NCBI GenBank assembly: GCA_023957775.1
Contig: JAMLGR010000011.1
Location: 62,001 to 126,000, forward strand
Reading direction: 5' to 3'
Length of the DNA: 64,000 bases
DNA from: Fimbriimonadaceae bacterium
GTDB lineage: Bacteria; Armatimonadota; Fimbriimonadia; Fimbriimonadales; Fimbriimonadaceae
Position 1 is the first letter of the stretch. Every line of letters begins with the position of its first letter. Positions 36,049 to 48,674 of the stretch are shown here, piece after piece. A program made the translations under genes and the position numbers. Below the pieces are notes generated by a model. That model did not search any database. It was not told the DNA's origin and saw only the letters and a list, made by a program, of their open reading frames with translations.

Positions 36049-37515
36049 CTAGTCCGTGGGGACGAGGCGGATGATCTTGTCCGGCTGGTTCAGGATCACG
36101 TAGAGGTTCCCGTCGGGGCCGAAGGCGACGTCCCGCACACGCCCCATGCCGTGGAGGATCTCCTCGCGGTCGTAGAATTCGCCGTCCTTCATGCGAAGGC
36201 GGTCGACGTTGGCGCCTGCCAGGCCTCCGGCGAAGAGGTCGCCCTTCCACTTCGCAAAGGCCTTGCCTCGGCACACGTCGAGCCCGCAGGCGCCGATCGA
36301 CGGCAGCCAGCGGAACACGTGCATCGTGAAATCCTGGTCGCCCGTCGGCCAGGGGAGCACGAAGGGCGAGTCGTTGTAGTTGATTGAAGTCGAGATCACC
36401 GGCCAGCCGTAGTTGTGGCCCTTCTGGATCAGGTTGACCTCGTCGCCGCCGCGCGGACCGTGCTCGGTGTCCCAGAGGTTGCCGTCGAGGTCGAACACCA
36501 GCCCCTGCGGGTTTCGGTGGCCGAGGGTCCACATCGGGTTGCCCGGGTAGGGGTTGTCGGAAGGGATGCTGCCGTCCTCGTTGAGGCGCATGATCTTGCC
36601 GTAGGGGGTCGTCGGGTCCTGCGCCCGCATGTTCGTGCCCCGCTCACCCACCGAGAAGAAGATGTGGCCCTTGCCGTCGAACACGACCTCGGTGCCGAAG
36701 TGGATGCCCGCGCCGGAGTAGAACTTCTGGTCCGCCTCGTAGATGGTCTGCTCGGCCGTCCACTTCGCACCGCCGTTGGAAAAGTCGATCTTGCCGCGCA
36801 CGATCTTCGTGAGCGCTTCCCTGTTCCCGGATTTCGCCTGGTCGGCGATCCCGAGGTAGATCCAGCCGTTCTTGGCGTAGTCCGGGTGCGGCGCCACCTC
36901 GAGGAGTCCGCCTTGGCCGAGTTCGATGCTCGGGGGAATCCCGTCCACCTTGGTCAGGGTCCCCTTGTCGATCACAAAGAGCACGCCGGGGCGGTTGGTG
37001 ACGAGCGCGCGCCCGTCGGGGAGCCAGTCGATGGACCACGGGGTGGAGAGTCCCTTCCCCGAGTCGACGAAGTCTTCGATGCGGTAGCTGTGAAGGTCGG
37101 TCTTCACCACGCCGTTCACCGGCCGCGTCGAGCCGGTCTCGGCGCGCAGCGCCTTGGCCTGCAGCTCGCGGATGTGGACGACGAGCGCCCAGATCTCCCG
37201 GTCGGTCAGCGTTGGCCCGTACGCCTCCATCCCCATGTCCTTCCGTCCGTTCTTGATCGTGTCGAAGTAAATCCGATCGTTGTCCTGGTCGAATCGCCCC
37301 CACGTGTTGAAGCTGTGGGCGCCTGCACCACCACCCTCGCCGTTCACGCCGTGGCACTTGGCGCACGTGTCGTTGTAGAGCTGGGTGACGTTGCGCGCTT
37401 GGCCGGCTTCGGAAGGTCCTCCGCCCGTCGGGTCGGCCGGATCGGAGGGGGCGAAGGAGCATGCGGCGGCGAGGCTGGAGGCCGCCAGTGCGAAAAGAAG
37501 TTGTCGGGCGATCAC
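36049..37515 (-). CDS. Cytochrome c-PQQ sugar dehydrogenase fusion, lipoprotein
   Basis: 488 residues from GTG 37515. The N-terminus has a signal with a possible lipobox (SSLAAAC, Cys19). Residues 40-120 are a cytochrome c domain with heme motif CAKCH (51-55) and a likely distal Met in KDMGMEAYGPTL. From about 150 to the end is a soluble aldose/glucose dehydrogenase propeller (GSDH): PWSIDWLPDGRALVTNRPG, WIYLGIADQAKSGN, TEHGPRGGDEVNLIQKG and GRVRDVAFGPDGNLYVIL. It would oxidise sugars in the periplasm and pass electrons to the respiratory chain through heme. TACCTT lies 7 nt upstream. It follows the ferredoxin operon by 30 nt. Confidence 0.92.
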   Translation of the reverse strand: MIARQLLFALAASSLAAACSFAPSDPADPTGGGPSEAGQARNVTQLYNDTCAKCHGVNGEGGGAGAHSFNTWGRFDQDNDRIYFDTIKNGRKDMGMEAYGPTLTDREIWALVVHIRELQAKALRAETGSTRPVNGVVKTDLHSYRIEDFVDSGKGLSTPWSIDWLPDGRALVTNRPGVLFVIDKGTLTKVDGIPPSIELGQGGLLEVAPHPDYAKNGWIYLGIADQAKSGNREALTKIVRGKIDFSNGGAKWTAEQTIYEADQKFYSGAGIHFGTEVVFDGKGHIFFSVGERGTNMRAQDPTTPYGKIMRLNEDGSIPSDNPYPGNPMWTLGHRNPQGLVFDLDGNLWDTEHGPRGGDEVNLIQKGHNYGWPVISTSINYNDSPFVLPWPTGDQDFTMHVFRWLPSIGACGLDVCRGKAFAKWKGDLFAGGLAGANVDRLRMKDGEFYDREEILHGMGRVRDVAFGPDGNLYVILNQPDKIIRLVPTD

Positions 37516-37545: not shown

Positions 37546-39699
37546 CTACGCAAAGACCTTGGCCCGCTCCAGCAACTCCTCCAATCCGGGCTCGTCGGGA
37601 TTGCGCGGCTTTCCAGGGTGGATGATCGCCACCTGGCAGCTTTCCGCCGCCTCGACGAGCTGCCGGAAGGTGCCTGCATCGGGGTCGGCGATGTAGGCCT
37701 GCTTGTTCTCGTTGTAGGCGAACATCTTCGCGTTGACCTGGGTGCACTCGTTGCAGCTCGTGCACCGCGCCGTCTCGATGTAGGGATCGTCCGTTTGCGG
37801 CGTCTCGACGGGTTCGACGGGCTCCTCCGGAGTCGCCGGCTCGGGGGAGGCGGGCACTACCTCGGAGGATTCCACAGAAGGGATTGCTTGGGCCTCCCAA
37901 GCGTGGCGCTCGGCCTCGAGCAGCCGTTGGGCATGCGAATTGTGGATGCCCCCCAACTCCTGCAGGCTGCGCCACATGCCGAGGCAACGCCGCCCCTCGC
38001 GCAGCAGCCGTTGGTCGGCCAGCACCTTGTGCAGCCGATCGTCTCCGTCGACGAGCATCACGTACGGCACCTGATCCGGGAGGCCCTTGGATTCGCGCGC
38101 CAACGCGTCCGGCGCCGTCATCATCGTGCCGTTCCACCGCTCCCGATCGACGCGCGCGAAGTGGTTGGCGAACCGAAGGTCGCATGCCGCAAAGTCGAGG
38201 AAGGTGAAGGCGAGCTCCTCTTCCACGCGCTGCATGTCGGCACCCTCGTACGAGAAACGATGAACGGGCCAATCCAACTCGGGCTGGGGATTGTCGTCGA
38301 GGCGGAACCGCGTCGCCCAGTCGCCTCCGCCGAACGGGTCGTACACAAAGGCGGGAAACGCCCGGGACTCCGTCGCCGCCGCCGCCACCAAATAGGGAGG
38401 AATCGGGCCGTGCGAGCCTCCGGCGCCGGAGTACACGCTGAACAGGGCCGGTCCCGGCGCGGCAATGCCCTTGGCGAGGCGATTGCGCATCGCCGGAAGG
38501 CTTGAGGCGCCGGCTTGGAGCACGAACACGTCGCTGAGGCTCAGCGCGGTGGAGACCAGGTGCCGGTTGTGGAGCCCGAAGGCGAGGTGCTCGTCGCCGG
38601 CGCGGTCTCCTCCCAAGAGGTCGTCGGTTTGGATCACGATCTTCATGGGGAGGCCCATGGCGAGCATTTCGACGAGACGCGCGTTCTCCGGCGCCTTCAT
38701 CTTCCCCGAATTCACGCACACGAGGTAATCCGGAAACGAGTCGAGGTCCGAGGGGTCCAGGCCGTTGGCCCCGAAGTCTGCGAAGAGCGGCTCATGCCAC
38801 GACTCGCGGTACTCCCCCCGGACCTCCAGGTCCGCGATAGCCATCGCGCGGGCGAGTTCGATGGCGTGGGGAAGCCGATCGTGGTACGCCTCCAAGGCCG
38901 CGGACGCGCTCTCGAAGACAAACTCGTAGGGCTGGGCACCGCCGTCGGAACTGGGATAGAAGCGCTGCCCGCGGAGGACCTCCAGAAGCGACTCGATCCG
39001 CTGCCGTCTCGCTTCGGGCAGGGCTTCGACGGGTGCATTGCGGGCAAGTGTCCGCGAAAGCGCGTCGAAGTCGAACGCCGACTCGAAGCTCGAACCGATC
39101 GAGGCTTTGAGGTTTGCTGGGCTGCGGCCTGCTTCCGAGCGGACGAAGTCCGCCCGGAGGATTTCGGACAGCCGGAGCACGAGGCGCTCCACCTCGGCCC
39201 GGAGGGCGCGGCCCTTTCGCGTGTGCGCCGCGCGCCAAAGGTGGGCGAACAGCCGGGACGGCATCGCGCGATCGCAATCCACCACGGGGCCGTCGGCTCC
39301 GAGCGCAGCGCGAAGCGATTCCGCATTCTTCGCGAACACCTCGTCCCGTTCGAGCACGAGGCGGGCGATCGACTTCTGCACCAACTCCGAGAGGTCGCCC
39401 TGTGCACCTCCGGCGACTCGGGTGCGCACGTCTAGCTCGATGGCGCGGGCGTGGTGGACCAGTTGGCTTCGGTCGGCGTCTTCAGGAAAGCCTGCCAGGG
39501 CCCGGTCGAACAGCTCGGAGAGGCTCAACACCTCGTTTGGGGCGAGTACCAGAGGGAAGTCGTAGCGCAGGTTCGTTAGGTCCCGGAAGCGCGCGAACAA
39601 GGCGGGTCGAAGGTCGCCCGCCTGGAGGGGCTGGACTCCCGGCGCGTCGATGCGGCCGGTGAGATGAAACGTCAGTTGGGCTTGTCGATCGGTTTCCAT
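37546..39699 (-). CDS. Large ferredoxin-fusion protein with a degenerate PFOR-like region
   Basis: 717 residues, with GGAG 5 nt before ATG 39699. Residues 1-320 are mostly helical and unrecognised. Residues about 345-460 resemble the C-terminal TPP-domain part of NifJ: GLPMKIVIQTDDL matches GRDVNILVMDTEV, and GPALFSVYSGAGGSHG matches GPSLVLAYSHCIAHG of the NifJ encoded here (about 995-1110). The TPP/Mg motif (GDGWAYDIG) and the SNTGGQ loop are missing, so this part cannot be a working PFOR site. The C-terminus is a one-cluster ferredoxin: Cys646, 649, 652 and 688. It follows korB by 13 nt. Likely an electron carrier or adapter for the oxidoreductases. Not known to me by name. Confidence 0.82.
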   Translation of the reverse strand: METDRQAQLTFHLTGRIDAPGVQPLQAGDLRPALFARFRDLTNLRYDFPLVLAPNEVLSLSELFDRALAGFPEDADRSQLVHHARAIELDVRTRVAGGAQGDLSELVQKSIARLVLERDEVFAKNAESLRAALGADGPVVDCDRAMPSRLFAHLWRAAHTRKGRALRAEVERLVLRLSEILRADFVRSEAGRSPANLKASIGSSFESAFDFDALSRTLARNAPVEALPEARRQRIESLLEVLRGQRFYPSSDGGAQPYEFVFESASAALEAYHDRLPHAIELARAMAIADLEVRGEYRESWHEPLFADFGANGLDPSDLDSFPDYLVCVNSGKMKAPENARLVEMLAMGLPMKIVIQTDDLLGGDRAGDEHLAFGLHNRHLVSTALSLSDVFVLQAGASSLPAMRNRLAKGIAAPGPALFSVYSGAGGSHGPIPPYLVAAAATESRAFPAFVYDPFGGGDWATRFRLDDNPQPELDWPVHRFSYEGADMQRVEEELAFTFLDFAACDLRFANHFARVDRERWNGTMMTAPDALARESKGLPDQVPYVMLVDGDDRLHKVLADQRLLREGRRCLGMWRSLQELGGIHNSHAQRLLEAERHAWEAQAIPSVESSEVVPASPEPATPEEPVEPVETPQTDDPYIETARCTSCNECTQVNAKMFAYNENKQAYIADPDAGTFRQLVEAAESCQVAIIHPGKPRNPDEPGLEELLERAKVFA

Positions 39700-39712: not shown

Positions 39713-40699
39713 TCAGGCGTTGGATCCTCCCTCGCTGCCTTGCGGCCAAACGGTGAACTTGTCGAACTCGCGGTCCAGCCCCTCCTGAACCATGCGGGCC
39801 GTGCGCAGCCTCTTGTCGCTCCTCAGGTTCTCGTACAGCGGGGCATCGGGGTTGTGATAGAGGATGCCGACGGGAATTGGGTCGCCCGCGGAGGCGATCT
39901 CGCGTGCGCGGTCGATGTTCGCCGGATCGTGTTCTTCCTGCCGCGAGTACACGCGGGATAGGTCGGCGTCGAACGTCAATCCGTTCTCGTGCTTGAGCAA
40001 TAGGACCCGCTGGGGATCGTGCAGCCAAGGGTCCATGTTCTTGGGCAGCCACTCCGGACAGCGCTGCACGATGCGCACGAACGAGAAGCCCTGGTGGCGG
40101 TAGGCGGCCAGCAGAATCTGGTAGAGGACCTCGGGAATCCAGTCCACGGCCTGGGCCACGAACGACGCGCTATGCACGCCCAACGTGACCGAAAGCGGGT
40201 TCATCGCGCCCAGATACGAGCCCCGGGGCGTCGTGTTGGTCACCAGGCCGAGGGGAGAGGTGGGGGAGGCCTGCATCTTGGTGAGGCCGTAGATCTGGTT
40301 GTCGTGCAGCATCACCGTCAGGTTCATGTTGTAGCGAAGGGCGTGCAGCCAGTGCGCGGCGCCGATGCTGCAACAATCGCCGTCCCCGGTGCTGACGAAC
40401 ACGTCCAGATCGGGACGCGCCATCTTGATCCCCTCTGCAATCGGAAGCGCACGGCCGTGGATGCCGTGGAACCCGTACGTGTTCATGTAGTGGGGCAGGC
40501 GGCTCGAGCATCCGATGCCCGAGACGAACACGGTCTTCTCGGGGCGCAAGGCTTCATCGCGGCACAGTCTCTGCACGGCGGCGAGGATCGCGTTGTCGCC
40601 GCAGCCCGTGCACCAGCGGGGCACGCCCTTTTGGTAGTCCTCGAGGTCGAATCGTTCTTCGACCATCCGCAGCAGACATTCGGTGGGTGCGTTGTGCAT
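39713..40699 (-). CDS. korB: 2-oxoacid:ferredoxin oxidoreductase, beta subunit
   Basis: 328 residues, with GAGGAG before ATG 40699. The TPP-binding subunit: CTGCGDNAIL (Cys30, 33), VSGIGCSSRLPHYM, GRALPIAEGIK, and the TPP motif GDGDCCSIG (104-112) with Asn133 in HDNQIYGLT. The sequence ASPTSPLGLVTNTTPRGSYL is typical of the 2-oxoglutarate or general 2-oxoacid Kor type. It cleaves a 2-oxoacid with CoA and reduces ferredoxin. With KorA (upstream, 10-nt gap) it forms the enzyme. Substrate choice (2-oxoglutarate or branched 2-oxoacids) is not fixed by sequence; branched acids would suit the acyl-CoA mutase. Confidence 0.95.
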   Translation of the reverse strand: MHNAPTECLLRMVEERFDLEDYQKGVPRWCTGCGDNAILAAVQRLCRDEALRPEKTVFVSGIGCSSRLPHYMNTYGFHGIHGRALPIAEGIKMARPDLDVFVSTGDGDCCSIGAAHWLHALRYNMNLTVMLHDNQIYGLTKMQASPTSPLGLVTNTTPRGSYLGAMNPLSVTLGVHSASFVAQAVDWIPEVLYQILLAAYRHQGFSFVRIVQRCPEWLPKNMDPWLHDPQRVLLLKHENGLTFDADLSRVYSRQEEHDPANIDRAREIASAGDPIPVGILYHNPDAPLYENLRSDKRLRTARMVQEGLDREFDKFTVWPQGSEGGSNA

Positions 40700-40709
40700 C
40701 GTCTCCTCG

Positions 40710-42692
40710 CTAGGCCTTCTTGAGCTTCTCCAAAAGCACTTGGCGTATCGTGTTGGGCTTGATCGGCTGACCCCGGACCTCGCTCCAGCAGTCCACGGCG
40801 ATCAGGGTGCGCGCGCGCAGCAGCATGGCGAGCGCGGAGTAGCGGCGGTTGCTCTCGTCGATGATCGAGTCCTCCAAACGGTCGCTCCAGTTGCCCTCGA
40901 TCGTCATCACCTGGTGGAAGCGCTGAAGGATCTCCTTGATCCCCTTCGGCATGGGTTGGATGAAGGTCAGATGAAGCGACGACACCTTGTGTCCCTCTTC
41001 TTGTAGCTGCCCCACGGCCTCTTCGATCGCACCCTTCGTGCTGCCCCATCCCACCACGAGGAGATCGCCCTTGGGGGGGCCGAACACCGGCGGAGTCTTC
41101 AGCGTCCGTTGAAGCGCGGCGAGCTTCAGGCTCCGGGCGCGCAGGCTACGCTCGTTGGTGTCCGAATCGTAGGCCACGTGGCTCAACTCGTCGTGGGCCA
41201 GCCCGGTCAACGTGTGGGTGCCTCCTGCCTGCCCAGGCAAGAACCGCCGCGCGAGACCCGTTTCAGGGTCCCAGTCGTACGGCTTCGAGCCGGGCTCGAT
41301 CGGCGTCTGGTCGATCGGTGGGGCCATCCAATCTTCTTGGAATGACGGCCGTGGGAAGGGCTGCTGCGACGTGGCCAGCGTGGCGTCGGAGAGGATCGCC
41401 ACCACCATGTTGAACGTCTCCGCGATCTTGCGGGCGGCGATCACGGAGTAGAAGCAGTCCTCGATCGTCGCAGGCGCCATGACGACCTTGGGCGCGTCGC
41501 CGTGACTTCCGAACATGGTCGTGAGGAGATCGCCCTGCTCGGTCTTCGTGGGCTGCCCGGTACTGGGACCGCCACGTTGCACGTTGACCACGACCAAGGG
41601 GATTTCGCCCATCACGGCCAACCCGATGGCCTCCTGCTTGAGCGAGTATCCGGGGCCGGAGGTCACGGTGACCGTGCATTTGCCCGCGTACGAGGCGCCG
41701 ATGGCGAATGCGCAGGCGGCGATCTCGTCCTCGGCCTGGTGCACCAGGCCGCCGACCTTGTCGAACGCCTCGCTCAAGTAGTGCGAAACCGAGGTCGCCG
41801 GGGTGATCGGGTACATCGCGCAGATCTCCATCCCCGAGGCGAGCACCCCGAGCGCCAGGGCCGTGTTCCCGTTCACGACGATCTGGGGCTCCGTCGCGCG
41901 GACGGCTGGGATCTTGTACTGGAAGTCGAGGTTCCGCTCGGCCCACGTGTAGCCCGCCTCCAGGAGATCGAGGTTCTTGTCGATGACCGCCTGGGTCTTC
42001 TTGCGGAAGGTGAGCGCGACCTGGTCGCGCGCGAGCTCCATGTCGAAGCTGTAGATGTTGCAGAGCATGCCCAGGACGAACATGTTCTTGCCCTTGCGCG
42101 CATCCGAGACGTGCCGCAGGCACTCCTGCTCCATCGGGATCTCGATCACCCGGTAACCGGCTGCGACGAGGCGTTGGACCGTGTCCATGTAGGACGCCGC
42201 GACGCTGGGATTCGGGTCGTCGCGCCACATGCTCTCCAGCAGGATCGTCGAGCCCGGTTTCAGTTCGCGGGAGTGGATGCGCCCAAGCAAGACCTGCTCG
42301 TTAAACGCCACGACGAGATCCGTCTCGTTGCCGCCGTTGGTCACGCGTTTGGCGCCCACACGGATGCGGTTGCCGCTCGCCCCCGCGACGCTGCGCGCCG
42401 GGGGACGAATCTCGGCGGGAATGATCTCGACCGTCCACACCCCGTTGCCGGTGCGCGCCGCGATGGCGCCGAACGATTGGCCGCAACGCTGGGCGCCCTC
42501 GCCCGAGTCGCTGATGACCTCGACGATGTGCTCCTGAAGCGTCACGACCGTCCGGCGCGGTGACTTGCGGCCCTTGGGGGCCACGTGTTGACCGTTTCCG
42601 TTGGTCGAGGGCGCGGGCGTGTCGAGCTTCGCTCGGCGGGTTTTAGGCGAGGCGGATTCGGGCAAAGTTCTGCTCCCTGGTGTCGATTCCAA
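40710..42692 (-). CDS. korA: 2-oxoacid:ferredoxin oxidoreductase, fused gamma-alpha subunit
   Basis: 660 residues if started at TTG 42692; TTG 42668 (GGAG 8 nt upstream) is a good alternative. Residues 50-235 are the gamma domain (ISDSGEGAQRCGQSFGAIAA, NETDLVVAFNEQVL). Residues 270-655 are the alpha domain with the pyrimidine-binding YPITPATSVS (294-303), the substrate-side EDEIAACAFAIGASYAGK and TSGPGYSLKQEAIG, and a C-terminal transketolase-like region (DLLVVGWGSTKGAIEEA). The gamma-alpha fusion is usual for KorA. The gene overlaps the NfnB-type gene by 26 to 50 nt, so both are translated together. Confidence 0.94.
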   Translation of the reverse strand: MESTPGSRTLPESASPKTRRAKLDTPAPSTNGNGQHVAPKGRKSPRRTVVTLQEHIVEVISDSGEGAQRCGQSFGAIAARTGNGVWTVEIIPAEIRPPARSVAGASGNRIRVGAKRVTNGGNETDLVVAFNEQVLLGRIHSRELKPGSTILLESMWRDDPNPSVAASYMDTVQRLVAAGYRVIEIPMEQECLRHVSDARKGKNMFVLGMLCNIYSFDMELARDQVALTFRKKTQAVIDKNLDLLEAGYTWAERNLDFQYKIPAVRATEPQIVVNGNTALALGVLASGMEICAMYPITPATSVSHYLSEAFDKVGGLVHQAEDEIAACAFAIGASYAGKCTVTVTSGPGYSLKQEAIGLAVMGEIPLVVVNVQRGGPSTGQPTKTEQGDLLTTMFGSHGDAPKVVMAPATIEDCFYSVIAARKIAETFNMVVAILSDATLATSQQPFPRPSFQEDWMAPPIDQTPIEPGSKPYDWDPETGLARRFLPGQAGGTHTLTGLAHDELSHVAYDSDTNERSLRARSLKLAALQRTLKTPPVFGPPKGDLLVVGWGSTKGAIEEAVGQLQEEGHKVSSLHLTFIQPMPKGIKEILQRFHQVMTIEGNWSDRLEDSIIDESNRRYSALAMLLRARTLIAVDCWSEVRGQPIKPNTIRQVLLEKLKKA

Positions 42693-44136
42693 ACAAGGTG
42701 GGGGCGTCTTCCTTCCCGTCGTCGAGCGGGTCGCGAAGCCCCAGATACGACTTGATGCTCCGGGCCGCCTTGCGGCCGGCCCCCATGGCCTCGATGACCG
42801 TGGCCGCTCCGGTCACGATGTCGCCCCCGGCGTAGACGCCCGCCAGCGACGTGGCCAACGAGTCGTCCGCCCGGAGGTAGCCCCACTTGTTGAGCTCCAG
42901 CCGAGACGTCTGGCCGATGATGGGGTTCGCGTTGGTTCCGATCGCGAACACGACCTGGTCGCACTCGATCTCGAACTCGCTTCCTTCGACCGGCACGGGG
43001 CGGCGTCTTCCCGAGTCGTCGGGCTCTCCCAACTCCATGCGCACGCAGGTCATCCCACGCACGCTGCCTTCGCCGTCGTCGAGGACCTCCACCGGATTGG
43101 TGAGCCAGTGGAACGCGATCCCCTCCTGTTCGGCATGGTGCACCTCCTCCGCGCGAGCCGGCGCCTCGGCCTTGGAGCGGCGATAGACGCACGACACCTG
43201 CTCCGCGCCCAACCGCAGGCACACGCGCAGGGCGTCCATGGCCGTGTTGCCCGCGCCCACCACCGCGACCCGCTTGCCCAGGGGCAGCGGGGTGTCCACG
43301 TTGGGGAAGTTGCGGGCGCCCATCAGGTTGCAGCGGGTCAGCAACTCGTTCGCCGAGAGCACGCCGTTCAGCGAGTCCCCGGGGATACCGAGCATCGAGG
43401 GATAGCCCGCGCCCGTTCCGATGAACACAGCGTGGAAGCCCATCTCGTCGATCATCTGCTCGATCGTGAACAGTCGGCCGACGAGCGTGTTGCACTCGAA
43501 CTCGACCCCGAGTTTCTTGAGGTTCTCGATCTCGGCGTCCACCACCGAATTGGGAAGACGGAAGTCGGGGATGCCGTAGCGGAGTACGCCGCCGGGCTCG
43601 TGGAACGCCTCGAACACGGTCACCGCGCAACCCGCTTTTGCCAGGTCGGCGGCACAGGCCATCCCGGCTGGGCCGGAACCGACGACGCCGATCTTGAATC
43701 CGTTGGGCTCCGTGTAGGGGAGGTTGGCCCAGCCGCCGGAGATGGCGCGGTCGCCGACGAACCGCTCGAGGCGACCGATCGCGACGGGTTCGAGCGATTC
43801 GCCCACCACGCACACGCCTTCGCACTGGTTCTCCTGCGGGCACACGCGCCCGCACACGGCTGGCAAGAGGTTGGTCGCCGCGATCGTGTCGTACGCCCCT
43901 CGGAAGTCGCGCTCCCCCACCTGGCGGATGAACGTGGGGATGTCGATGCTCACCGGGCACCCGGAGATGCAAAGCGGCTCGGGGCAGAAGAGGCAGCGCT
44001 CGGTTTCCAGGATCGCCTCGGCCTCGGTGTAGCCGCAGTTCACCTCTTCGAAGTTCCTGGCGCGCTCCTTCGGATCGAGTTCGCGAACCGGGGTCCGCGT
44101 TTGCGGGATGCTCCGGATCGTTCGTTTCTTAGCCAT
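42643..44136 (-). CDS. nfnB: NfnB/GltD-type FAD-NADPH oxidoreductase with two [4Fe-4S] clusters
   Basis: 497 residues from ATG 44136 (AAGGAGG upstream). N-terminal iron-sulfur cysteines: 48, 51, 56, 60 and 95, 99, 105, 109. FAD Rossmann motif GVVGSGPAGMACAADLA, then GGVLRYGIPDFRLP, and the NADPH site VAVVGAGNTAMDALR. C-terminal GVYAGGDIVTGAATVIEAMG closes the FAD site. Paralogous to GltD, but a GltB partner is absent and an NfnA-type gene lies directly upstream (8-nt overlap), which argues for the electron-bifurcating NADH-ferredoxin:NADP transhydrogenase NfnAB over glutamate synthase. Not proven by sequence. Confidence 0.88.
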   Translation of the reverse strand: MAKKRTIRSIPQTRTPVRELDPKERARNFEEVNCGYTEAEAILETERCLFCPEPLCISGCPVSIDIPTFIRQVGERDFRGAYDTIAATNLLPAVCGRVCPQENQCEGVCVVGESLEPVAIGRLERFVGDRAISGGWANLPYTEPNGFKIGVVGSGPAGMACAADLAKAGCAVTVFEAFHEPGGVLRYGIPDFRLPNSVVDAEIENLKKLGVEFECNTLVGRLFTIEQMIDEMGFHAVFIGTGAGYPSMLGIPGDSLNGVLSANELLTRCNLMGARNFPNVDTPLPLGKRVAVVGAGNTAMDALRVCLRLGAEQVSCVYRRSKAEAPARAEEVHHAEQEGIAFHWLTNPVEVLDDGEGSVRGMTCVRMELGEPDDSGRRRPVPVEGSEFEIECDQVVFAIGTNANPIIGQTSRLELNKWGYLRADDSLATSLAGVYAGGDIVTGAATVIEAMGAGRKAARSIKSYLGLRDPLDDGKEDAPTLFGIDTREQNFARIRLA

Positions 44137-45046
44137 CGTCCGCCTCCTTGCGCATGCGGCACGTCTCGCTCCAGCGCTCCATTGCAACGCGCTCCTCTTC
44201 GGCGTAACGTTTGAGCCGCATCGTCAAGTCGTCGAAGTCCACCTGATGGCCGTCGAAATCGGGGCCGTCCACACACGCGAACAGCACCTTGCCGCCAACC
44301 TTGACCCGGCACCCGCCGCACATGCCGGTCCCGTCGACCATGATCGGGTTCAGGCTCACGACCGTCTTGATGCCGTGGGGCCGGGTCACTTCGGCGCAAG
44401 CGCGCATCATCATCGGCGGTCCGATCGCGACGACTTCGTCGATGTCGTTGTGGCGGTCGATCGCCGCTCGGATGCCGTCGCTCACAAACCCCTTGAGTCC
44501 GGCGGAGCCGTCGTCGGTGCACAGAATCAGCTCGTCGCAGATCTCGCGGAAGCGGTCTTCCCAAAAGACGAGGTCCTTCGTGCGGAATCCGAGCACCCCG
44601 ATCACTTGGGCTCCCGCCTCCTTGAATCCGCGCGCCTGTGGGAAGACCGGCGCCACGCCCAGACCTCCGCCGACGCACACGACCTTCTTGTGCCCCTTCA
44701 GCGGACTCGGGACGCCCATGGGACCGGCCAGTCCGTGGAGCGTCGTTCCGACCTGGCAGGTCTGCTGCATGGCTCGGGTCGTCTTGCCCACGGCTTGGAT
44801 CACGAGGGTGATCGTCCCCCTCTCCCGATCGAAGTCCGCGATCGTCAAGGGAATGCGCTCGCCTCCGGCGTGCGACATCACGATCACGAACTGGCCCGGT
44901 TGCGCGGCCTTGGCCATCAGGGGGTGGTGGACTTCCAGCATGTACGTGACGTCGGAGTAATCCTCGCGCGTCACGATCTCGAACTTGGATGATGGTTCGG
45001 TTTTCAAGGGCCTATCTACTTGGCGCTTCCGTGCGGAAGCCTCCAT
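44129..45046 (-). CDS. nfnA: NfnA-type FAD/[2Fe-2S] subunit (sulfide dehydrogenase-like)
   Basis: 305 residues. Ferredoxin-reductase-like FAD domain (GERIPLTIADFDRERGTITL), NAD domain (VVCVGGGLGVAPVFPQA) and C-terminal cluster region VDGTGMCGGCRV with Cys243, Cys246 and Cys258 plus Asp238. In Thermotoga NfnA the [2Fe-2S] cluster is held by three Cys and one Asp, the same set as here. It carries the NAD side of the transhydrogenase. The N-terminus is about 20 residues longer than usual; no better start was found. Upstream is a 79-bp gap with a heptamer repeat, so a separate promoter there is possible. Confidence 0.9.
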   Translation of the reverse strand: MEASARKRQVDRPLKTEPSSKFEIVTREDYSDVTYMLEVHHPLMAKAAQPGQFVIVMSHAGGERIPLTIADFDRERGTITLVIQAVGKTTRAMQQTCQVGTTLHGLAGPMGVPSPLKGHKKVVCVGGGLGVAPVFPQARGFKEAGAQVIGVLGFRTKDLVFWEDRFREICDELILCTDDGSAGLKGFVSDGIRAAIDRHNDIDEVVAIGPPMMMRACAEVTRPHGIKTVVSLNPIMVDGTGMCGGCRVKVGGKVLFACVDGPDFDGHQVDFDDLTMRLKRYAEEERVAMERWSETCRMRKEADDG

Positions 45047-45125: not shown

Positions 45126-48100
45126 CTAGCTGAGCGACGCCATCTCCTCATAGAGCTTCCACCTCCGCTCGACCGCGGCTTGGGCGTCGTCCATCAGCTT
45201 GTCGGCGTTCCGCGGGTTCGTTTGGCGGAGCATGCGGAACCGGAGCTCGTTGTCGGTGAACTCCTTCAGCTTCAGCGTGGGCTTGGCCGAGTCGAGGGCG
45301 AACGGGTTGACGCCCGCTGCCCGAAGCTCGGGATTGAACCGAACGAGGGGCCAGTAGCCGCTGTGCACGGCGCGCGACTGCTGGTCGAGCCCGGTCTCCA
45401 TCGGGATGCCGTGGGCGATGCAGTGGCTGTAGGCCAGCACGAGCGACGGTCCGGGGAACGTCTCCGCTTCGCGCAAAGCGAGCAGCGTCTGCTGGGGGTT
45501 CGCCCCAAGGGCGATGCGCGCCACGTACACGTACCCGTACGCGATCGCTTGGAGCGCCAGATCCTTCTTGCCCACCTGCTTGCCCGCGTTGGCGAACTTC
45601 GCCACCGCGGCCAGGGGCGTGGCCTTCGACGCTTGCCCGCCCGTGTTCGAGTACACCTCCGTGTCCATCACCAAAATGTTCACGTCCCGCCCGCTGGCCA
45701 GCACGTGGTCCAAGCCGCTCGAGCCGATGTCGTAGGCCCATCCGTCGCCTCCGACGATCCACACGCTGCGGCGGACGAGGTGGTCCGCCACGGATTCGAG
45801 CTGGGCGACCTCGGGGCGATCGAGGGTCGCGAGGCGTTTGCGCAGCTCCTCGACACGGTCCCGCTGGCGGCGGATCTCCGACTCCAGGCGCTGCGGCGCG
45901 TGGATCAACTCCTCCACGAACTCCTGGCCCAGGTCGGGGGCCAAGGCCCGCAGCATGCGGTGTCCAAGCGCCATGTGGCGGTCGGCGGCCAGGCGCATCC
46001 CCAGCCCGAACTCCGCGTTGTCTTCGAACAGCGAGTTCGACCACGACGGACCGCGATGCTCGTGGTTGACCGACCAGGGGGTGGTCGGCAGGTTCCCGCC
46101 GTAGATCGACGAGCATCCCGTGGCGTTTGCGACCATCATCCGGTCGCCGAACAACTGCGTGAGCAACCGCAGGTAGGGGGTTTCGCCGCAACCCGCGCAC
46201 GCGCCGGAGAACTCGAACAACGGCTCCAGGAACTGCGTGCCGCGCACCGTGGAGAAGTCCACCGACGAGCGGTCGTTCACGGGCAGCGACTCGAAGAACG
46301 CCGCGCGAGCCTTCGAGGCCTCGCCGTGCTGCGGCTTGGGGGCCATGTTGATCGCGCGCCGCCCCGCCTCCTCCTTGCTGCGCACGGGACACGCCTCCAC
46401 GCAGAGCGCGCACCCGGTGCAATCCTCCTCGAACACGTGCAACGCGTACTGCGTGTCTGGGAACCCGCGCGCGTCGATCGGAGCGCTGGGAAAGCCCTCG
46501 GGGGCGGCTTCGAGCCGGTCGCGCGAGAACAGCCGCGCCCGAATGGTCGCGTGCGGACACACGAACGCGCAGTTGCCGCACTGGATGCAGATTTCGGGGT
46601 CCCAAATCGGGACGAACTCGGCGATGTCGCGTTTCTCCCAGCGCGACGTGCCGCTGGGGTAGGTCCCGTCGTCGGGCAGCGCGCTTACCGGGAGCGCGTC
46701 GCCCCGACCGGCCATGATCTCCGCGGTGACCTTCTGCACGAACTCGGGCGCGGCGTCGGGGACCGTCGCGCGCATCCGCACGTCGCCGACGGGCTGGGCG
46801 GGAATCGGGACTTCCTGCAGGTTGGCAAGGGTCTGGTCGATCGCTTCGAAGTTCTTGCGCACGACCTCTTCGCCCTTGCGGCCGTAGGTCTTCTTGACAG
46901 CGTTCTTGATCTTCTCGATCGCCTCCTCGCGCGGCAGAACCCCGGAGATGGCGAAGAAGCACGTCTGCATGATCGTGTTCGTGCGGTTGGCCATGCCCAC
47001 TTCGCGCGCCACCCGCGACGCGTCGATCGTGAACACGCGCACCTTCTTTTTCAGGATCTGCTCCTGCATCGCGCGCGGCAGGTGCTCCCAAACTTCGCTG
47101 GCCGCGTAGGGGCTGTTGAGGAGCAGCGTGGCGCCTTCGGCGGCGTGGCGCAGAACATCGATGCGTTCCACGAACGCGAACTGGTGGCAGCCTACGAACT
47201 GGGCGGAACGGATCAGGTACGTCGAGCGGATGGGCTTGTGCCCGAAGCGCACGTGCGACACGGTCTGCGAGCCCGACTTCTTCGAGTCGTACACGAAGTA
47301 GCCCTGCGCGTAGAACTGGGGATCGTCCCCGATGATCTTGATCGTGTTCTTGTTGGCACCAACCGTTCCGTCGGCGCCCAGGCCGTAGAAGAGCGCCCGG
47401 TGGACGTCGTCCCCTTCGGTCGAGAACTCCGGATCGTACGCCAGACTCGTGTGCAGGACGTCGTCGTCGATGCCGATGGTGAAGTGGTTCTTCGGGCGCC
47501 CTTCTGCCAGCGCGTCGAACACGGCCTTGACCATGCCCGGGTGGAACTCTTTCGAGGAGAGGCCGTACCGGCCGCCGACCACCTTGGGCATCGCGTCCAA
47601 CCGCCCCTCCGCATGGGCTTCGGACAGACTCGCCACCACGTCGAGGTAGAGCGGTTCGCCCGCCGCGCCCGGCTCCTTGGTCCGATCGAGGACCGCCACG
47701 GCTCGGGCCGACGCCGGCAGCGCTTGCAGCAGGTGCGATGCGGAGAACGGGCGGAAGAGGTGGACTTGGACGACTCCCACCTTCTCTCCGCGCTCCACGA
47801 GGTGTTCCACCGTTTCGCGCGCTGCCTCGGCGCCGGAACCCATGAGGACGATCACGCGCTCGGCGTCCGGATCGCCAAAGTAGTCGAAGAGACGGTAACG
47901 CCTTCCCGCGATCTTGTGGAAGCGCTCCATGGCGTGTTCCACGATCTCGGGGCACCGCTCGTAGTAGGCACCGCAAGCCTCGCGGGCTTGGAAATAGACG
48001 TCCGGATTCTGGGCGGTTCCCCGAACGAAGGGGTGGTCGGGGTTGAGCGCGCGCCGCCGGTGGGCGATCACCAGCTTCTCGTCGACCATCTCTCGGATCT

Positions 48101-48674
48101 GGTCGTCGGAGAGAAGCTCGATCTTGTTGATCTCGTGCGACGTGCGGAACCCGTCGAAGAAGTGCAGGAACGGCAACCTCGCCTCCAGAGTGGCGGCCTG
48201 TGCGATCAGCGCCATGTCGTGCGCCTCTTGGACCGACGAGGAGGCGAGTTGCGCGAACCCGGCGGGCCGCACGGCCATCACGTCCTGGTGGTCCCCGAAG
48301 ATCGAGAGCGACTGGGTCGCCAGCGACCTCGCCGCCACGTGGATCACGCACGAGGTGAGTTCGCCTGCGATCTTGAACATGTTGGGCGTCATCAGCATGA
48401 GGCCCTGGGACGCGGTGAAGGTCGTGGTCAGCGAACCGGACTGGAGGGCGCCGTGGACCGTGCCCGCTGCGCCTCCCTCGCTCTGCATCTCGACCACGTC
48501 GGGTACGTTGCCCCACACGTTCGTGCGCCCCTCGCTCGACCACTGGTCGGCGAGTTCGGCCATTGTGGACGAGGGAGTGATCGGGTAGATCGCGCACACC
48601 TCGTTCACGCGGTAAGCGACCGACGCCGCGGCCTCGTTGCCGTCGATCGTATCGACGAGGCGGTTCTTAGACAT
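45126..48674 (-). CDS. nifJ: Pyruvate:ferredoxin (flavodoxin) oxidoreductase
   Basis: 1182 residues, the full single-chain NifJ length, with GGAGGG before ATG 48674. Domain order: N-terminal pyrimidine domain with YPITPSSTMAE (30-40), transketolase C-like domain, gamma domain near 430-630, two [4Fe-4S] clusters (Cys696, 699, 702, 706 and 752, 755, 758, 762), then the TPP domain with GCG at 828-830, GGDGWAYDIG (975-984) and DTEVYSNTGGQASKATP (1004-1020). It converts pyruvate and CoA to acetyl-CoA, CO2 and reduced ferredoxin. The gene overlaps the flavoprotein-ferredoxin gene by 8 nt. All key residues are in place. Confidence 0.97.
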   Translation of the reverse strand: MSKNRLVDTIDGNEAAASVAYRVNEVCAIYPITPSSTMAELADQWSSEGRTNVWGNVPDVVEMQSEGGAAGTVHGALQSGSLTTTFTASQGLMLMTPNMFKIAGELTSCVIHVAARSLATQSLSIFGDHQDVMAVRPAGFAQLASSSVQEAHDMALIAQAATLEARLPFLHFFDGFRTSHEINKIELLSDDQIREMVDEKLVIAHRRRALNPDHPFVRGTAQNPDVYFQAREACGAYYERCPEIVEHAMERFHKIAGRRYRLFDYFGDPDAERVIVLMGSGAEAARETVEHLVERGEKVGVVQVHLFRPFSASHLLQALPASARAVAVLDRTKEPGAAGEPLYLDVVASLSEAHAEGRLDAMPKVVGGRYGLSSKEFHPGMVKAVFDALAEGRPKNHFTIGIDDDVLHTSLAYDPEFSTEGDDVHRALFYGLGADGTVGANKNTIKIIGDDPQFYAQGYFVYDSKKSGSQTVSHVRFGHKPIRSTYLIRSAQFVGCHQFAFVERIDVLRHAAEGATLLLNSPYAASEVWEHLPRAMQEQILKKKVRVFTIDASRVAREVGMANRTNTIMQTCFFAISGVLPREEAIEKIKNAVKKTYGRKGEEVVRKNFEAIDQTLANLQEVPIPAQPVGDVRMRATVPDAAPEFVQKVTAEIMAGRGDALPVSALPDDGTYPSGTSRWEKRDIAEFVPIWDPEICIQCGNCAFVCPHATIRARLFSRDRLEAAPEGFPSAPIDARGFPDTQYALHVFEEDCTGCALCVEACPVRSKEEAGRRAINMAPKPQHGEASKARAAFFESLPVNDRSSVDFSTVRGTQFLEPLFEFSGACAGCGETPYLRLLTQLFGDRMMVANATGCSSIYGGNLPTTPWSVNHEHRGPSWSNSLFEDNAEFGLGMRLAADRHMALGHRMLRALAPDLGQEFVEELIHAPQRLESEIRRQRDRVEELRKRLATLDRPEVAQLESVADHLVRRSVWIVGGDGWAYDIGSSGLDHVLASGRDVNILVMDTEVYSNTGGQASKATPLAAVAKFANAGKQVGKKDLALQAIAYGYVYVARIALGANPQQTLLALREAETFPGPSLVLAYSHCIAHGIPMETGLDQQSRAVHSGYWPLVRFNPELRAAGVNPFALDSAKPTLKLKEFTDNELRFRMLRQTNPRNADKLMDDAQAAVERRWKLYEEMASLS

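Follow-up and report, generated by a model that had tools for sequence, protein, structure and literature searches.

We found that a 717-residue protein, further referred to as X, combines a non-catalytic PFOR beta-half with a C-terminal ferredoxin. Its gene lies at 37546..39699 on the minus strand of the window, by which we mean the whole 64,000-nucleotide stretch of Fimbriimonadaceae DNA that was analysed, and the description rests on the ORF, hhalign, predicted fold and dN/dS. Judged from its sequence, X branched off within the OFOR superfamily as a pseudoenzyme, and it was probably recruited as a ferredoxin carrier. It is genomically tied to one KorAB subfamily. We think it probable that X serves this subfamily as a non-catalytic, ferredoxin-bearing subunit or shuttle, which would take electrons from KorB and hand them to an Nfn-type flavoprotein or some other low-potential acceptor. 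No paper on X or on an OFOR pseudoenzyme was found in the literature.

The X gene starts with ATG at 39699, in a region that is common to the homologues in the alignment, and its stop codon ends at 37546. It is the last in a row of genes that runs nifJ, nfnA-like, nfnB-like, korA, korB, X, all on the minus strand, with gaps of 79, -59, -50, 10 and 13 bases, the last of these separating korB from X. NifJ (45126..48674) is a canonical PFOR (TIGR02176, 1771 bits) and stands outside the conserved cassette. The NfnA-like FAD/NAD subunit with a DHODB-type Fe-S domain (44129..45046; NF004862, 379 bits) and the GltD/NfnB-like flavoprotein, the large Nfn subunit (42643..44187; TIGR01316, 578 bits), are both kept in the cassette. 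KorA (40710..42692), the fused alpha/gamma subunit of a 2-oxoacid:acceptor oxidoreductase, scored 514 bits with TIGR03710, over the cut-off, and KorB (39713..40699), the TPP subunit, matched TIGR02177 with E 2.2e-72, under that model's cut-off. KorB retains GDGD (105-108) and candidate cluster cysteines 30, 33, 64 and 214, and its TPP motif and four cluster cysteines are conserved in 15 homologues; the catalytic partner of X therefore looks intact. Thirty bases past X begins a gene for a glucose/sorbosone dehydrogenase with an N-terminal cytochrome c (36049-37515, minus strand), which was not seen next to X at any of the other loci covered.

Residues 637-717 of X (37549..37791, minus strand) form a single [4Fe-4S] ferredoxin domain with Cys 646, 649, 652 and 688, as indicated by Pfam, the alignment and the predicted fold. 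Pfam detected Fer4_13 at residues 642-694 (E 2.4e-5; 25.3 bits against a cut-off of 24.5). Further, the X profile matched Desulfovibrio africanus ferredoxin I (E 7.5e-6), and the predicted domain compared with 1fxr at TM 0.80. The four cysteines were invariant in all 15 complete X proteins. The sequence-only reading had described an ORF of 717 residues ending in a four-cysteine ferredoxin, and this was correct. The ferredoxin is also the most conserved part of X, with 71-84% identity to other X proteins and 70% to the long PFOR of locus L014 (see below), of which other segments were only 14-30% identical to X. Fer4_13 was the sole Pfam match of the full chain and no NCBIfam model matched it; with no description found either, X does not appear to be an already named member of a ferredoxin family. 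It is also distinct from the PorD/KorD delta ferredoxin subunit (TIGR02179, 2[4Fe-4S]), as it has one cluster motif and no NCBIfam match. The ferredoxin is preceded by a flexible, Pro/Glu/Ala-rich linker (residues 601-636; 37792..37899, minus strand), which varies in length among homologues, is gap-rich in the alignment and has low pLDDT (below 50 at residues 607-635). In a Gemmatimonadetes record we observed a 177-aa ORF (L012:7980-8510) that was 59% identical to residues 543-716 of X only. It could be a free-standing version of the ferredoxin or a fragment.

The remaining part of X is related to PFOR. In a family-to-family hhalign comparison, X and the C-terminal halves of seven long PFORs, which are described below, matched over 710 columns with E=2.8e-84 and P=100%. 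A match remained when the ferredoxin was left off the body (E 1.8e-53) and when just residues 1-320 were used (E 4.4e-14), while reversed and column-shuffled controls all gave E>0.07. Residues 1-320 (38740..39699, minus strand) are, by hhalign and the residue table, homologous to the long-PFOR ferredoxin/early beta domain. Here FRDLTNLRYDFPLVL of the X N-terminus pairs with FRDMTGIRFEHPEWV of long PFORs, immediately ahead of the first cluster motif, and DGPVVDCDRAMPSRLFAHLW pairs with GDGACLGCSEKSIVHLFTAT. Considering the profile match and these paired segments, we assign the X N-terminus to the PFOR ferredoxin/early-beta region, with its Fe-S ligands deleted; it had previously been taken for a region unlike anything recognised. 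Residues 321-600 (37900..38739, minus strand) form a pseudo-TPP (beta) domain according to the residue table, hhalign and VIA-align to Moorella PFOR. A profile of 16 X sequences also matched the NifJ alignment (hhalign, E 2.2e-5; columns 373-503, about residues 339-469), with reversed and column-shuffled controls at E 0.08-0.9, which confirms the resemblance of residues 345-460 to the end of the NifJ TPP domain that was noticed earlier. Searches of PDB sequences with single X sequences and with the X profile returned ferredoxin I and chance matches only, so the link to PFOR needed profile-profile and fold evidence. A direct relationship between X and KorB was rejected, as the two gave no profile match (E 0.43).

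The fold was predicted with AlphaFold2. The first model was built from X-only rows (12 sequences; pLDDT 78.6, pTM 0.72). The best 17 Foldseek matches of this model were all PFOR (E from 3.9e-4, prob 1.00), and VIA-align placed residues 46-585 on PFOR residues 694-1170 (Z 17.5, rmsd 5.5, 269 residues). A deeper model (21 rows, plasmid-derived rows left out; pLDDT 83.2) included five rows of long PFORs and is therefore not independent evidence of the fold. In VIA-align it gave Z 18.7 with Moorella PFOR; among TPP enzymes that do not belong to the OFOR group the best value was 10.6. Foldseek TM values of the whole X model against PFOR were low (0.16-0.23), because the comparison covers partial chains and the domain arrangement is different or uncertain. 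The body of X is thus predicted to carry the PFOR/OFOR beta-domain fold. The fold prediction and the profile matches agree with the earlier claim that a dead PFOR-like region is joined to a ferredoxin.

We compared catalytic and cluster residues between 15 complete X proteins and seven long PFORs. The eight Fer4 cysteines, the proximal CxxC with TGC, GGDG and SNTGGQ were present in seven of seven long PFORs. All 15 X proteins have lost the two Fer4 motifs and the TGC ligand by deletion, and have other residues in place of GGDG and SNTGGQ. The loss of the TPP/Mg motif and the SNTGGQ loop, already seen in the window protein, therefore extends to the whole set. The proximal CxxC was incomplete in 14 of the 15, with one cysteine or none (VVDC in the window X); the X of L010 retains both cysteines, probably as a relic. 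Further, the VYSG/VFSG stretch of X is not followed by the cysteine found in YSxC of long PFORs and NifJ, so that this cluster ligand is lost too. The POR_N, PFOR_II and POR domains gave no Pfam match in X, and the ORF covers the post-POR part only. Of the features of an active PFOR (TIGR02176), namely the TPP motif, internal clusters and N-terminal domains, X has none. With the catalytic motifs gone, X might be taken for a piece of a long PFOR that is decaying as a pseudogene. This seems hardly credible, as intact ORFs of similar length occur in 15 genomes, carriers include Alpha-, Beta- and Gammaproteobacteria (by record titles) besides the window's own lineage, and synteny is strict. In an orthologue pair (80% identical) we calculated dN 0.126 and dS 0.509, a ratio of about 0.25 for the whole X gene, and the body alone gave an equal ratio, which in this one close pair indicates that the dead body is under purifying selection.

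The long PFORs are apparently an unnamed class. Long proteins whose C-terminal part matches X came up in a tblastn search of plasmids, in a 1,634-residue frame of Persicobacter psychrovividus and a 1,966-residue frame of Gemmatirosa kalamazoonensis, and a Gemmatimonadota contig carries a further one (1,719-residue frame). The proteins of Persicobacter (pPP1, L019) and Gemmatirosa are encoded on megaplasmids. Altogether the class spans frames of 1,633-1,966 residues in Bacteroidota, Gemmatimonadota and others, these being stop-to-stop lengths, so that the true starts may be somewhat later. We place these PFOR-like proteins of the long form, which carry their C-terminal ferredoxin on a tether, at L019:8572-13473, L014:4542-9698, L020:5381-11278, L055:4210-9162 and L056:5413-10422. 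Their Pfam domains run POR_N, PFOR_II, POR, two Fer4 clusters, TPP domain, ferredoxin. They scored 389-421 bits with the PFOR equivalog, far under the cut-off of 911, which marks them as an uncurated long form. The sequence-only reading considered that X could be a mimic of NifJ; it rather looks like the reduced C-terminal half of this different, longer PFOR class, in which the intact members already have the same tethered ferredoxin. In the tree X formed one clade (100/100) on a long stem, and its sister group among long PFORs was not placed. Therefore truncation of a long PFOR to a shortened C-terminal half is the likely, not proven, origin of X, with descent from a common ancestor as the alternative.

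The surroundings of X are conserved in the order NfnA-NfnB-KorA-KorB-X. The korB gene was directly upstream of X in 16 of 16 genomes with sequence there, which supports the proposed link of X with KorAB; of the genomes with sequence at the respective places, 11/11 have an NfnB-like and 9/9 an NfnA-like gene. As these loci were found through X, we searched for KorA independently of X in two sets of genomes, 80 from betaproteobacteria and 61 comprising the window's and its relatives. Where KorA was at least 72% identical to that of the window, X was present in 8/8 cases (one cassette split over contig ends), whereas KorA at 32-37% identity had neither GltD nor X alongside (0/7). An adapter role, in which X would mimic NifJ and dock on it, had also been suggested. 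In the window nifJ does lie upstream of the cassette, and X has a predicted PFOR fold; however, NifJ was not detected beside any other X cassette and X tracks KorA, so this reading is not favoured and we consider it very improbable.

The distribution of X is patchy, with two of 151 genomes of the window's phylum carrying it. The window X groups with that of a family relative, nested among proteobacterial X in the tree, as would fit a lateral spread of the cassette as a whole. In two betaproteobacteria a second set of GltD-like and OFOR-like genes stood directly downstream of X (L002:10336-15180 and L049:6957-11802). L002 comes from a metagenome bin whose record bears the title 'Bordetella parapertussis', a label that is probably wrong. 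A link of X with nitrogenase was rejected, since nifH was absent in all 15 X genomes. Class I benzoyl-CoA reductase was commoner in X-bearing betaproteobacteria than in the others (5/7 vs 7/73, Fisher p 6e-4, phylogeny ignored). Neither the window genome nor its family relative has this enzyme, which was therefore rejected as a general partner of X; aromatic reduction would be at most one use of X.

We propose that KorAB oxidises a 2-oxoacid, probably 2-oxoglutarate, and that electrons would leave KorB through its single cluster (Cys 30, 33, 64, 214) to be taken up by the ferredoxin of X. The PFOR-like body may dock on KorAB and/or Nfn and so position the ferredoxin, which could swing on the linker and deliver electrons to the Nfn-type flavoprotein of the cassette or to another low-potential acceptor. 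The flavoprotein would then make NADPH or confurcate with NADH. In such a scheme the private, tethered ferredoxin of X would stand in for a diffusing one, and the downstream acceptor may vary by organism. The suggestion that X is a dedicated electron acceptor of KorAB has thus become the best explanation of the data; the electron transfer itself we infer. More tentatively, and with somewhat less than even chances, a pseudoenzyme scaffold docked on its active paralogue KorAB would wire 2-oxoacid oxidation to electron-bifurcating Nfn with no diffusible carrier.

The Nfn end of this scheme is supported by two genomes in which a variant long PFOR adjoins a fused Nfn (AadN-like) flavoprotein (L054:5216-13022 and L059:415-8462). 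The terminal ferredoxin of these variants differs (CTNCKTCYQDLP). In Xanthobacteraceae genome G205 both a variant long PFOR beside fused Nfn and X were present. In R. palustris the fused Nfn AadN has been implicated in providing benzoyl-CoA reductase with electrons (PMC9973337). X could instead belong to an Nfn-like complex, its body docking NfnAB and its ferredoxin being Nfn's private donor or acceptor, with KorAB one of several sources. The genes beside the variant long PFORs of L054 and L059 and the NfnA/NfnB-like genes in every cassette with sequence there agree with this, but X adjoins korB, not the nfn genes, and in Gemmatimonadota, where a related KorAB occurs near a long PFOR, no Nfn match was found close by. 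We regard such a complex as rather doubtful. A Gemmatimonadota cluster (L014:1-9698) has the order KorA, KorB, an unknown protein, an RnfB-like protein and a long PFOR. On sequence grounds it parallels the KorAB-X cassette with a partner whose catalytic motifs are intact. Finally, a conserved, scaffold-like body without an active site would suit a KorAB subunit that serves assembly, stability or regulation, with the ferredoxin acting as a redox sensor and not as an electron conduit. This we find unlikely, as the ferredoxin is the part under the strongest conservation and the same module ends a multi-cluster chain in the motif-intact long PFORs.

Ferredoxin-dependent 2-oxoacid oxidoreductases are usually assumed to feed a soluble ferredoxin pool. 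The presence of a conserved dead homologue that brings a ferredoxin along suggests that in some bacteria this electron flow is insulated and channelled to one partner. X thereby bears on the routing of low-potential electrons to demanding reductions, for example that of benzoyl-CoA. With X and the long PFORs, two uncurated families have come to light, and X offers a concrete case of a pseudoenzyme within the OFOR superfamily.

Compared with known systems, X differs from AadN, the pattern-B Nfn of R. palustris, which is an Nfn-type chain partner but belongs to the flavoproteins and has no homology to X; a given strain has either korAB or aadN (PMC9973337). In canonical PFOR/NifJ (TIGR02176; Moorella 6cin, Desulfovibrio africanus 1b0p) residues of about 694-1170 are matched by about 46-585 of the predicted X models (Z 17.5-18.7); X lacks the TPP motif, internal clusters and N-terminal half of these enzymes and has an extra ferredoxin. 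The long PFORs (L019, L014, L020) are like X over 710 columns, linker and terminal [4Fe-4S] ferredoxin included, but they keep the POR_N/PFOR_II/POR half, two Fer4 clusters, the proximal cluster and the TPP site, all missing from X. The C-terminal domain of X resembles single-cluster ferredoxin I of D. africanus (1fxr/1dax; TM 0.80 to 1fxr), except that in X it is fused through a linker to a dead PFOR body of about 600 residues. Two-subunit KorAB (Magnetococcus 6n2n; Thauera type) is thought to work with free ferredoxin, and to our knowledge no X-type subunit has been described for KorAB systems. In the cassettes found here KorAB is encoded with X, and KorB is the catalytic counterpart of the dead domain of X.
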